Of a stretch of DNA of 64,000 nucleotides, positions 39,501-45,500 are shown one piece after another. The first letter of the stretch is position 1. Each line of letters opens with the position of its first letter. Below the pieces are notes generated by a model that ran no database searches, was not told where the DNA came from, and saw nothing but the letters and a program-made list of their open reading frames with translations. A program made the position numbers and the translations under genes. The DNA is from Tubiluchus corallicola (taxonomy: Eukaryota; Priapulida; Priapulimorpha; Priapulimorphida; Tubiluchidae): positions 186,001-250,000 of the forward strand of contig JAQGDQ010000341.1 in NCBI GenBank assembly GCA_030141605.1, read 5' to 3'.

Positions 39501-42500
39501 CATCAGAAAGAGGAGGAACAGGGCTACACGATGATGTGGGCTATATTTTAGGACACGTCCACTGAGAGGAGTAGCGACGAGTTCATTAGATGTTCTATTT
39601 TCGGCAATTTTCGCTTAAAAAATTGCTGACACAATGCCATTGTTGTGACGTCATCCATTGTACTCTGTCTATAGCTTTAATTCAGTAAAAGCTGCTACAG
39701 GCTTTGCGTTAGGTAAGTAAACAAACAGTAGGCAGGATGTTCGCGTATTTTTGAGGACTATGTAGGATGTTCGCGTATTATTGATTACACGTGTATTTAT
39801 ACGCAAAATCTTTTGCGGGGCCTTTGCTAGTTTCTAATAAATGTGTTTAAAAGAAGCAGGAAGATATTTTGATTATTAGTGCTTCATACCAAAACTCCAT
39901 TTATTAGATTCACGGTTAATAGAATCATTCGCCTAATTGACTCAAAAATATTTTGTATAGGCCGCTTCTATTCAAATGTATATATAAATTTAAACTCAAA
40001 TGACATCAACACAACACACAAACAAAAAGAGACAAATAACTGCAAATAACACACATATAAAATTACGATCAAAGGAAAAGGGTCATCAGGTGAAGCACCG
40101 GAAAAAATTCACATTTGGTCCCTACTCTGTATCTTCAAACTCTCCCGGCGGTAAACTGTCGGTAATTGACTCGTATAATTTCTCATGATTCACTTAATAT
40201 TTTTACTTCGTGCACTTAAAATGAGATACTTGTGTGCCCAAAGAGCTTTTGCTGCTTTTATGTCATCTTTGAGTCGATTTTGTGTACTATAATATATGTA
40301 GAAACAGTCATGTAAGATACAGCTTTGTTTGTGAGCAGGTACAGTACGTTTATCGTATGTGCTAATATGTTAGTGTCGCCGTTTTGCTTTGAATCTGTCG
40401 CCCGCTTGTCCGCCGCAGTTAACCTCATTGTTTCTAGAAGCTAAATACTCAATCGCTTGTACAGCTGTTTGCTTTTGAAATCCCCGACCGCTTTTCACGG
40501 GGGAAGCAAGGTCGTCACCAACTGCAGCTGAAGCACTAGGTGACTAGATGTTTTGCATGAAAATGTGCAGCAAACAGCTACAGATTATCAACGTTTTTAT
40601 CATTATGAGAATTTCATAATCCAACTTCTTGAAAAAATGAAGCAGCCGACCTTGCACGAATTTATGTCATTTTTAGTGCTAATAATCAGATTTGTGAGAT
40701 AATTTTTTTCTATTTTCAATAATTTACTTATACAAATTAATCTTCATGTGAATTTTGGCATTAATTTGTTTTTAAAATTCATTCATAGTATGTTTCACTT
40801 TGCTACTTGTCAAAAACTGTATGTAGTGACATGGAACAACAGTATAGCTATAGAAAGGTTTTCTTTTGTAATTAGGATAATATGAATCCTTTTATCTTAT
40901 GTAACAATGCTGTTATGAAACTCGTGTTTGGAAAGATACATGAAATTAAATAGATTTTTAACTGCTTAAGTATTTTCATTATAAGATTTTCGAATGAATA
41001 GTATTTTAGAAAAACGGTTTCTGAATATTGCTGGGACTCTAAAATTTAATGTACATTTTAAGAAATGTTATACTTGGTATTCCGTGTGTCAGAAGAGTCT
41101 TTGCATATGTGTCGAAACTCATTCTATTCTTAATTTTGTCATCATTGCTGAATAGATAAATTTGGCAGATGATATTTGAGCTGTCAAGTTTAGAGTGAGT
41201 AACACTGATATCTCTTTTTTCTTACAGACTGTATTGCCCAGGTATTGTAGAAAGCGTCTGTAGAATGTGCAGAATTCAGAGACGAAAAGTGGACATCTTT
41301 GAAGAACTGTATGAAAGCACCTGTATGACACAGGTAAGCTTATGATGACCACCTGTATGACACAGGTAAGCTTATGATGACCACCTGTACAACACAGGTA
41401 AGCTTATGATGACCACCTGTATGACACAGGTAAGCTTATGATGACCACCTGCATGACACAGGTAAGCTTATGATGACCACCTGTATGACACAGGTAAGCT
41501 TATGATGACCATCTGTATGACACAGGTAAGCTTATGATGACCACCTGTATGACACAGGTAAGCTTATGATGACCACCTGTATGACATAGGTAAGCTTATG
41601 ATGACCACCTGTATGACACAGGTAAGCTTATGATGACCATCTGTATGACACAGGTAAGCTTATGATGACCACCTGTATGACACAGGTAAGCTTATGATGA
41701 CCACCTGTATGACACAGGTAAGCTTATGATGACCACCTGTATGACACAGGTAAGCTTATGATGACCACCTGTATGACACAGGTAAGCTTATGATGACCAT
41801 CTGTATGACACAGGTAAGCTTATGATGACCACCTGTATGACACAGGTAAGCTTATGATGACCATCTGTATGACACAGGTAAGCTTATGATGACCACCTGT
41901 ATGACACAGGTAAGCTTATGATGACCACCTGTATGACACAGGTAAGCTTATGATGACCACCTGTATGACACAGGTAAGCTTATGATGACCACCTGTATGA
42001 CACAGGTAAGCTTATGATGACCACCTGTACAACACAGGTAAGCTTATGATGACCACCTGTATGACACAGGTAAGCTTATGATGACCACCTGTATGACACA
42101 GGTAAGCTTATGATGACCACCTGTATGACACAGGTAAGCTTATGATGACCACCTGTATGACACAGGTAAGCTTATGATGACCACCTGTATGACACAGGTA
42201 AGCTTATGATGACCACCTGTATGACACAGGTAAGCTTATGATGACCACCTGTATGACACAGGTAAGCTTATGATGACCACCTGTATGACACAGGTAAGCT
42301 TATGATGACCACCTGTATGACACAGGTAAGCTTATGATGACCACCTGTATGACACAGGTAAGCTTATGATGACCACCTGTATGACACAGGTAAGCTTATG
42401 ATGACCACCTGTATGACACAGGTAAGCTTATGATGACCACCTGTATGACACAGGTAAGCTTATGATGACCACCTGTATGACACAGGTAAGCTTATGATGA

Positions 42501-45500
42501 CCACCTGTATGACACAGGTAAGCTTATGATGACCACCTGTATGACACAGGTAAGCTTATGATGACCACCTGTATGACACAGGTAAGCTTATGATGACCAC
42601 CTGCATGACACAGGTAAGCTTATGATGACCACCTGTATGACACAGGTAAGCTTATGATGACCATCTGCATGACACAGGTAAGCTTATGATGACCACCTGT
42701 ATGACACAGGTAAGCTTATGATGACCACCTGTATGACACAGGTAAGCTTATGATGACCACCTGTATGACACAGGTAAGCTTATGATGACCACCTGTATGA
42801 CACAGGTAAGCTTATGATGACCACCTGTATGACACAGGTATGATGACAAAAAAAATCTAAAATGGTGAACAGCTTTGCAGAACCCAATCAATTTCAAGTT
42901 CTTATACAGTTTGGCACACTGTATTTGGAATCCAGTACTTAACGACAAAACTACTTATTATACTGACAGTTGTGGTGAGACTGGAATGTAGGTCATTCAA
43001 AGATAGTATAGTATCAATGAGGAGCCAAACTAACAGATATGTCTTAGCCGTATATGTGCGTGTCGTATCCCAAGTAGGCCAGCATGGAGGTCACGTGATA
43101 GGAGGAGATGAACATTTATAATGATGAAAATGTTTTGGTCAATAAACATTAAATCATTTTGCATCGATGTAGCTACTGTATGTAATCAAACAATACGGCT
43201 CTATCATACTCCAATAAGATCAATGCATGCAATTGAATATGTATTTTCACACTGTCACCATTTCAAATTCAAACATTTTTTGTATACCATAGGATGAAAG
43301 CAGCAGAAAAGCTTATTTGAGCGACCTGCAAAATGTAGGATTGTATTCTAAACGTGGTGCTTCAATGATGAAAAGTTTTTCATTTATAAGTTATCATGAT
43401 GTGGGAAAAGTTCGTTCTCGATTTCAACCGGAACCCCAGAGAACGTTTCAACTCCCATGGTGGTGTGTGTACATTGGATGGTTTGTTGTAATTAGCACCT
43501 GTCTTACCTGTTCGTACCTGGTTATGCTGTATGGTCTGAAGTACGGATACGGGGAAAGTGTAGACTGGCTGATCTCTATGATAACTGGGATATTTCAAAG
43601 TATTTTTATAATTCAACCTGGTAAAGTTCTTGTTTTTGCTGCTATTATGGCACTCATCTTCAGAGAACCATCAGTTGAGGTTGAGGAAAGCCATTTTGAT
43701 GCATCACTAACGGCTAAAGATACTTATCTACAAGAAGAATGGCTTGGTGCTTATAAAAGGTCAGTATTTTCAATTCATGCTTCAGTAATATCATATTATT
43801 GCAAGCACTTCAGTTTTGCTTAACCAAATTGCAGAATTTTCATTATATTGTAATGTGTATGCTTCATTCGTTCAGAGTCGTTATTAGGGCACATGTCCCC
43901 CAATCGTGGGAGCCCATGGACTCTGGAAGCGCAAGGTTTATCAAGACAATTTCCTTGTATTTTCGGGCTGGGCTGAATTTCCATTGTTTTTTAATGCACA
44001 CTTATTAGAGCTGTGGCTAGGTGACACCAAGGCTTTAGAGCTGTGGCTAGGTGACGCAAAGGCTTTAGAGCTGTGGCTAGGTGACACCAAGGCTTTAGAG
44101 CTGTGGCTAGGTGACACCAAGGCTTTAGAGCTGTGACTAGGTGACGCAAAGGCTTTAGAGCTGTGGCTAGGTGACACCAAGGCTTTAGAGCTGTGGCTAG
44201 GTGACACCAAGGCTTTAGAGCTGTGGCTAGGTGACACCAAGGCTTTAGAGCTGTGGCTAGGTGACGCAAAGGCTCTAAAGCTGTGGCTAGGTGACGCAAA
44301 GGCTTTAGAGCTGTGGCTAGGTGACATGAGACGTGTTTGCATGTGCTTGAGTGCCCTGAATCTGTCCAGGAATGTGTTTGCATGTGCTTGAGTGCCCTGA
44401 GTCTGTCCAGGACTGTGTTTGCATGTGCTTGAGTGCCCTGAGTCTGTCCAGGAATGTGTTTGCATGTGCTTGAGTGCCCTGAGTCTGTCCAGGAATGTGT
44501 TTGCATGTGCTTGAGTGTCCTGAATCTGTCCAGGAATGTGTTTGCATGTGCTTGAGTGCCCTGAGTCTGTCCAGGAATGTGTTTGCATGTGCTTGAGTGT
44601 CCTGAATCTGTCCAGGAATGTGTTTGCATGTGCTTGAGTGCCCTGAATCTGTCCAGGAATGTGTTTGCATGTACTTGAGTGCCCTGAATCTGTCCAGGAA
44701 TGTGTTTGCATGTACTTGAGTGCCCTGAATCTGTCCAGGACTGTGTTTGCATGTGCTTGAGTGCCCTGAGTCTGTCCAGGAATGTGTTTGCATGTACTTG
44801 AGTGCCCTGAATCTGTCCAGGAATCCTGTTCGTTGCTCCGTAAGACAGGATATCTTATCCACATGCTTTCCTTTCCATGGCATTTGTGTTTTTTGTAATT
44901 TTAGTTATTATCTGGTGCTTAAATTTTTTCCACTTTCACAAACCTGTCCTAATTGCAGTAATTAATTTTAAATTTTCAGAACAAAGTTGTACTAGAAAAA
45001 CATTCTTGGGGAAACTACTTTCTTGAAAAGATGCTTTAACATGCCTATTTGCCACCATTTCCACTTCCTAATGCCATTTTGACATTTAATAGTTCAGCTT
45101 AATAGTCTTTTCTATTCTTTCCAATATTGTTTAATGAACTGGATAAGCTAGTTAGTTATTTGTGAGTCAGTGTTCATGAAACATGCCTAATGTAATTATT
45201 AAATGTGCATTTTTCGTATAAATTTGAATTTATTGCATCAACAAACTAATTACATCAAAAATATAACAAAAAGAAACATACAGTGTCACATTATACCATT
45301 ACTACGGAAAACAAAAATTTCTTTAGTTACAAAACATTAATGTAAGTGCATTAAATAGTTTAAAATACAGTGTTAAAACATTTTAGTTTTTTAGCAATCT
45401 GTTAAAAATGTTTTCGTATTAGAGGCATGAGTGTGAAATTTATTTATCATTACTGTCATGTAATTCAGATGTAGCATATACCAAGTTGATCTTAATTTTA

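Follow-up and report, generated by a model that had tools for sequence, protein, structure and literature searches.

The window analysed here, a stretch of 64,000 nucleotides of Tubiluchus corallicola (bases 186001-250000 of contig C110), contains a coding exon of a polycystin-1-like gene that ends inside a 32-bp minisatellite, and every full unit of this minisatellite carries a 5' splice site. The anatomy of the array is established, as are the single donor at its paralogous junctions and the occurrence of the same layout at other exon ends. We consider it probable that the array is a tolerated minisatellite lying across a working donor, that splicing uses the first donor, and that the array has no function of its own. 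A neutral minisatellite had been the fallback explanation of an earlier note on this DNA, and it is now the best supported reading. Seen across the genome, the donor array looks like a recurrent and mostly harmless kind of repeat.

A 32-bp array across an exon-intron border

The minisatellite occupies positions 41318..42840 of the forward strand as 47.6 copies of the unit CACCTGTATGACACAGGTAAGCTTATGATGAC. Tandem Repeats Finder (TRF) reported a period of 32, 98% matches, 0% indels, and a score of 2955, confirming that the tandem array is real and far beyond chance; as a head-to-tail repeat with a unit in the range of roughly 10-100 bp, it is a minisatellite by definition. Each full unit has one 5' splice site between 16 exon-derived and 16 intron-derived bases; in unit 1 (41318-41349), the exon part covers 41318-41333 and the intron part 41334-41349. 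This division into 16 coding and 16 intron bases at the exon-intron border had been proposed before, and TRF, direct counting, and three paralogous junctions described below all agree with it. By direct count, AGGTAAGC occurs 47 times within the array, with every spacing exactly 32, and 48 times over the whole window. The earlier note had described 48 copies of CAG|GTAAGC. While 48 sites are indeed present over 1504 bases (41334 to 42838) without any insertion or deletion, only 47 of them read GTAAGC. The count of CAGGTAAGC in the array is 46 rather than 47 because unit 9 reads TAG|GTAAGC, and the 48th donor-like site, at 42838, is CAG|GTATGATG (GTATGA). In the 47 full units, substitutions were found at unit positions 3 (five units), 7 (three units), 9 and 10 (two units, changed together), and 14 (one unit) and at no others. 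All of them are transitions and all are confined to the exon-derived half, a confinement based on five positions, which are too few for interpretation; GTAAGC is unsubstituted throughout the 47 full units.

It is very improbable that the array is an assembly artefact, that is, a collapsed or expanded repeat. The right flank of the array matches only one place in the assembly, so there is no second allele with which its length could be compared, but the perfect 32-bp register with its scattered variants and the presence of the same kind of array on many contigs are difficult to reconcile with such an artefact.

The exon that enters the array (41228..41333, forward strand) starts with a single base of a split codon, has an open frame from the acceptor tcttacag to the donor CAG|GTAAGC, and ends in phase 0. 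Its assignment to a polycystin-1-like gene is based on paralogous exons and on REJ and PKD_channel domains in frames of the window; the window's open frames encode EGF, REJ, and polycystin channel domains and presumably belong to one gene. The next coding exon (43293..43759, forward strand) opens past ..ccatag, is followed by AAAAG|GTCAGT, and has four paralogs at 73-77% identity. The two exons flanking the array gave 46 matches to a family in the same genome, two of which are the window's own. As read from the sequence and the open frames, the exon at 41228-41333 joins the exon from 43293 in frame and in phase 0 across an intron of 1959 bp. The first donor, GTAAGC at 41334..41339 (forward strand), is the sole donor from which the exon at 43293 is reached with no intervening stop, and it is probably the one used. 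Any later donor of the array would cause readthrough into GTA AGC TTA TGA, with a stop nine bases past the exon, as the earlier note had correctly stated. Two more minisatellites stand side by side directly past the next exon, 1.2 kb downstream of the array, at 44005-44326 (30 bp x 10.7) and 44333-44824 (41 bp x 12); such arrays therefore seem to be made freely in this genome.

The junction was read in three of the four closest paralogs, namely, two copies on contig C1862 and one on C1409; it was not located by an exact string search in the fourth, on C2157. The two C1862 copies (38556-39026 and 64836-65306) are very similar polycystin-like paralogs that are oppositely oriented and separated by about 26 kb. 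All three paralogous exons end with ..VTQ at the same position as the window exon, and each is followed by one donor, GTGAAG in both C1862 copies and GTAAAC in C1409. An array of this kind is absent from their introns of 802 and 782 bp (C1862) and 1391 bp (C1409). Because the three junctions end at the same place with a single donor, the exon-intron border is real, which also bears out the proposal that the first unit holds the true 5' splice site and that the later copies are intronic. On this comparison, the donor is old and the array was added to it later.

The origin of the unit can be approached in the same way. When its 16 intron bases are compared with the start of the paralogous introns, 13 of 16 positions agree with C1409 and 6 of 16 with each C1862 copy. 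Given the match to C1409, the unit appears to be a copy of an old, genuine border. The sequence starting from the 48th donor-like site, GTATGATGACAAAAAAAATC..., together with the right flank (42838..42869, forward strand), aligns locally to the C1409 intron from position 24 on with a score of 25, which was equalled by one of 500 letter shuffles; no such match was obtained with the two C1862 copies, for which 204 and 209 of 500 shuffles were as good. The best reading of the 48th 'donor' is old flanking intron, which would have become continuous with the array through a GTA common to both, rather than a decayed unit.

We propose that a young minisatellite arose over the pre-existing exon-intron border and would have expanded into the intron, possibly through unequal exchange or slippage. 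Since the first copy would rebuild the exon end together with its donor, splicing could continue at the first donor. The other 46-47 intronic donors would normally be skipped because the exon-proximal site is chosen first, either by exon definition or by the 'oriented scanning', as reported for intron 7 of human F7.

Arrays at other exon ends

The assembly (343.5 Mb in 2344 contigs) was scanned for three CAGGTAAG words spaced 10-40 bases, and the matches were assigned to at least 36 array loci. This number is a lower bound, since the GTAAGT class was taken from about the first 100 of 354 matches, CAGGTAAGAC arrays were collected only up to C105, and arrays with mixed next bases may escape. Flanks were read for 30 of the 36 loci (all except C633, C241, C413, C1001, C1553, and C1842) over unequal lengths, which for C159, C423, C2035, and C2184 came to only about 370-420 bases. 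In 10 of these 30 flanks, the first array donor closes a coding exon, with homology backing seven of the exons and an open frame only the other three. The window array, which the earlier note had treated as a single case, is not alone: nine other exon ends look alike, six of them homology-backed.

The exon end in the window is backed by its paralogs. In C105, C1974, and C2195, the matches reach the last residue of the exon, and they identify SLC35F (E 1.1e-24), PPIP5K2_N (E 1.6e-23, the PDB matches being those that reach the last residue), and an AUH-like methylglutaconyl-CoA hydratase (E 1.9e-11), respectively. The C426 exon matches Ig_3 at E 9.9e-7 with 29.6 bits, slightly below the cut-off of 30, and the C159 exon matches PH_13 at E 2.5e-7. 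The C5 exon is phosducin-like; by itself it has no Pfam match and a PDB hit only at E 5.7, but when it was joined by eye to the exon after the array, the two matched Pfam Phosducin across the junction (E 5e-7). The exons of C53 (24-bp unit), C217, and C2050 are open frames between an acceptor and a donor only and have no Pfam match. The exon-end layout recurs in unrelated genes and with unrelated units. No exon was recognised in 16 of the 30 flanks (C23, C53 with a 30-bp unit, C104, C236, C265, C357, C482, C507, C557, C598, C662, C676, C345, C1229, C2035, and C2184), where the judgement was made by eye on open frames and without a valid search for homology. The remaining four are unassigned, as the repeat runs on upstream in the stretch read (C1959 and C2278), the upstream sequence is N (C2342), or a short first exon is possible (C423). 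In C507, C557, and C676, the arrays consist of related 15/30-bp units built on TTTGGTACAGGTAAG, and no exon was recognised at their start. C357 has the same 44-bp donor-bearing unit in two arrays on opposite strands about 1 kb apart.

NAG|GTRRG donors were counted in nine of the ten exon arrays, with C159 outside the count. Their number ranges from 82 in C105 through 47 in the window, 45 in C5, 26 in C2050, 24 in C426, 22 in C1974 (besides its first, GTAAAC), 22 in C217, and 13 in C53 to 5 in C2195. When the exon is read on, a stop precedes the next NAG|GTRRG donor in seven of these nine arrays, at +9 in the window, +1 in C5, +12 in C53, +24 in C105, +20 in C426, +24 in C2195, and +1 in C1974, whereas two later donors stand ahead of the stop in C217 and nine in C2050. 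This suggests that most of these genes would need the first donor to make a useful mRNA. In C2050 (89500-92200), the 39-bp donor unit keeps the reading frame of the exon open (VSKTTQELTDSPQ repeated), and this array could lengthen a protein. Arrays at exon ends could also mislead gene prediction.

Choice among equal 5' splice sites is an old question that has mostly been examined in constructs containing two or three sites. Because the arrangement recurs at ten exon ends in the 30 flanks, with up to 82 donors, choice among near-equal donors becomes testable in nature. The exon ends, with their 5 to 82 similar donors, occur in relatives of conserved proteins such as PPIP5K2, AUH, and SLC35F and constitute a natural experiment on upstream-donor preference, on leakage with copy number, and on the tolerance of, or selection on, array length.

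Directed birth and U1 binding as alternatives

Two sets of results weigh against a tolerated repeat without function, namely, the excess of tandem CAGGTAAG over control words and the low variation of donor bases, which is not expected under a purely neutral model. Over the whole genome, the scan gave 728 tandem matches for CAGGTAAG, compared with 79 for the reversed word and 70 and 152 for two further control words. Copies of the single word were counted for one of the three controls, the reversed word, and amounted to 15008 for CAGGTAAG and 5930 for the control, so that the tandem share was 4.9% against 1.3%. Since CAGGTAAG is overrepresented in tandem arrays, the birth of arrays may not be random. 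Minisatellite birth could be directed to 5' splice sites or to their motif, for example by replication errors linked to transcription or hairpins, in which case the arrays would mark a mutational hot spot and would not be a neutral sample. We regard this explanation as unlikely. It is favored by the locus count, at least 36 compared with 9 and 13 for two control words, and by an excess of units that contain the reverse complement of their own donor. However, a few long arrays dominate the matches, and the locus excess per word copy over the counted control is only about 1.6-fold (at least 36/15008 versus 9/5930), itself a lower bound, which we do not take as proof of a hot spot. In addition, a recognised exon end was found in only 10 of the 30 flanks, the reverse-complement test was post hoc, and the predicted accessibility of the donors relative to shuffles was no lower than in control arrays.

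The tests of the units were as follows, all without C676, which is kin of C507. A reverse complement of the unit's own donor of at least 5 bp was found in 8 of 35 units (2.25 expected, P = 0.0007) and one of at least 6 bp in three units (0.69 expected, P = 0.03), the most striking being those of C217 (10 bp) and C2184 (8 bp). There was no excess of complement-only (1; 1.40 expected) or reverse-only (3; 2.85 expected) matches or in the control-word arrays (1 of 22; 0.87 expected). The excess is an open lead, the test having been devised after the pattern was seen. For the window unit, a 6-bp hairpin (ACCUGU/ACAGGU) that would hold the donor is predicted at -6.8 kcal/mol for a single unit, with 19 of 200 shuffles as good, and the predicted fold of the window exon end with three units has a z of -2.62. 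Masking of donors by RNA structure was rejected as a general feature, because the mean z of predicted accessibility was -0.21 for 35 arrays and -0.25 for 22 control arrays and thus not lower. It seems unlikely that minisatellites in this genome arise preferentially at 5' splice sites or at their sequence, with perhaps dozens of genes carrying 5 to 82 competing donors, some units carrying their own anti-donor, and splicing kept accurate only because the exon-proximal donor wins.

Variation was compared in 15 arrays, one of which (C2195) had 0 usable units and from which C159 was left out. Donor bases were less variable than the rest of the unit, with 32 variable positions against 42.5 expected (P = 0.007) and 83 variant donor cells against 146.8 expected (P = 0.0016). 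These P values are optimistic because the arrays were selected by the donor word itself, and their ends were set by exact donor words, which biases the test. The earlier note had raised the possibility that the array holds U1, and low variation at donor bases is the one hint that it might work as a platform for the U1 small nuclear ribonucleoprotein, where U1 bound early in the intron would block premature polyadenylation (telescripting) or where later donors would divert splicing toward decay and so tune the gene. The array does offer many U1-complementary sites, complementarity being judged from the consensus and not from the U1 of this species, and 47 strong donors are kept. In the pooled exon arrays, 51 variant donor cells were found against 97.1 expected (P = 0.008), a result partly due to C105, in which 0 of 656 donor cells vary compared with 99 of 2132 cells elsewhere in its units. 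However, arrays with no recognised exon likewise showed low donor variation (10 variable positions against 15.4 expected, P = 0.03; 32 variant cells against 49.4 expected, P = 0.07), and by variable positions the exon arrays were no clearer (22 against 27.0 expected, P = 0.07), although by variant cells they showed the trend more clearly. Furthermore, the array is missing at the three paralogous junctions, and units, periods, and genes are unrelated among arrays. A U1 platform is in our view distinctly improbable. What stands of the proposal is that donor bases vary less; the trend is weak, subject to the bias of word selection, and shared by arrays with no recognised exon, and donor conservation was dropped as proof of a U1 function on these grounds.

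Related systems and neighboring elements

By anatomy, the closest precedent for a tolerated array across a working donor appears to be intron 7 of human F7 (coagulation factor VII), which has 37-bp repeats. Only the most upstream donor is normally used there, and its mutation brings downstream cryptic donors into use, which give no functional protein (PMC6627357). The window array resembles F7 in that its first repeat holds the exon end and the presumed true donor, on which the three paralogous junctions agree, and in that each later repeat has a similar donor (47 x AGGTAAGC, 32 apart). Its gene and unit are unrelated to those of F7, and its scale is different: the window array has 47-48 donors, other arrays have as many as 82, and a single genome has ten such exon ends.

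Another related process is the gain of introns through tandem duplication, as in the potato RdRp case, for which a widely cited model uses AGGT segments (PMC4974935). The window array shares with this process a duplication across a splice border and AG|GT in the unit, but the window intron is older than the array. Intron gain was ruled out, as an intron lies at the same place without the array in the three paralogous junctions. With its period of 32, high identity, and head-to-tail copies, the array resembles an ordinary intronic minisatellite, except that its first unit belongs to a coding exon and provides what is presumably the working donor. A recursive-splice junction, also suggested in the earlier note, is matched by AG|GT in every unit but not by a pyrimidine tract upstream of AG, where the unit, inspected by eye, reads ..TTATGATGACCACCTGTATGACACAG|GTAAGC. 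In the open-licence literature, we found no title or abstract opening that describes donor arrays at many exon ends.

The window also contains possible traces of mobile elements, judged by eye. Reverse transcriptase-, THAP/P-element-, and integrase-like open frames lie in or near the polycystin-like gene at 48176-49210, 55853-57067, and 62522-63379, all on the reverse strand. Three frames with a similar translation (AIYLLPRV..) appear to be copies of a dispersed element, at 39221-39499, 50195-50539, and, on the reverse strand, 51752-52087.

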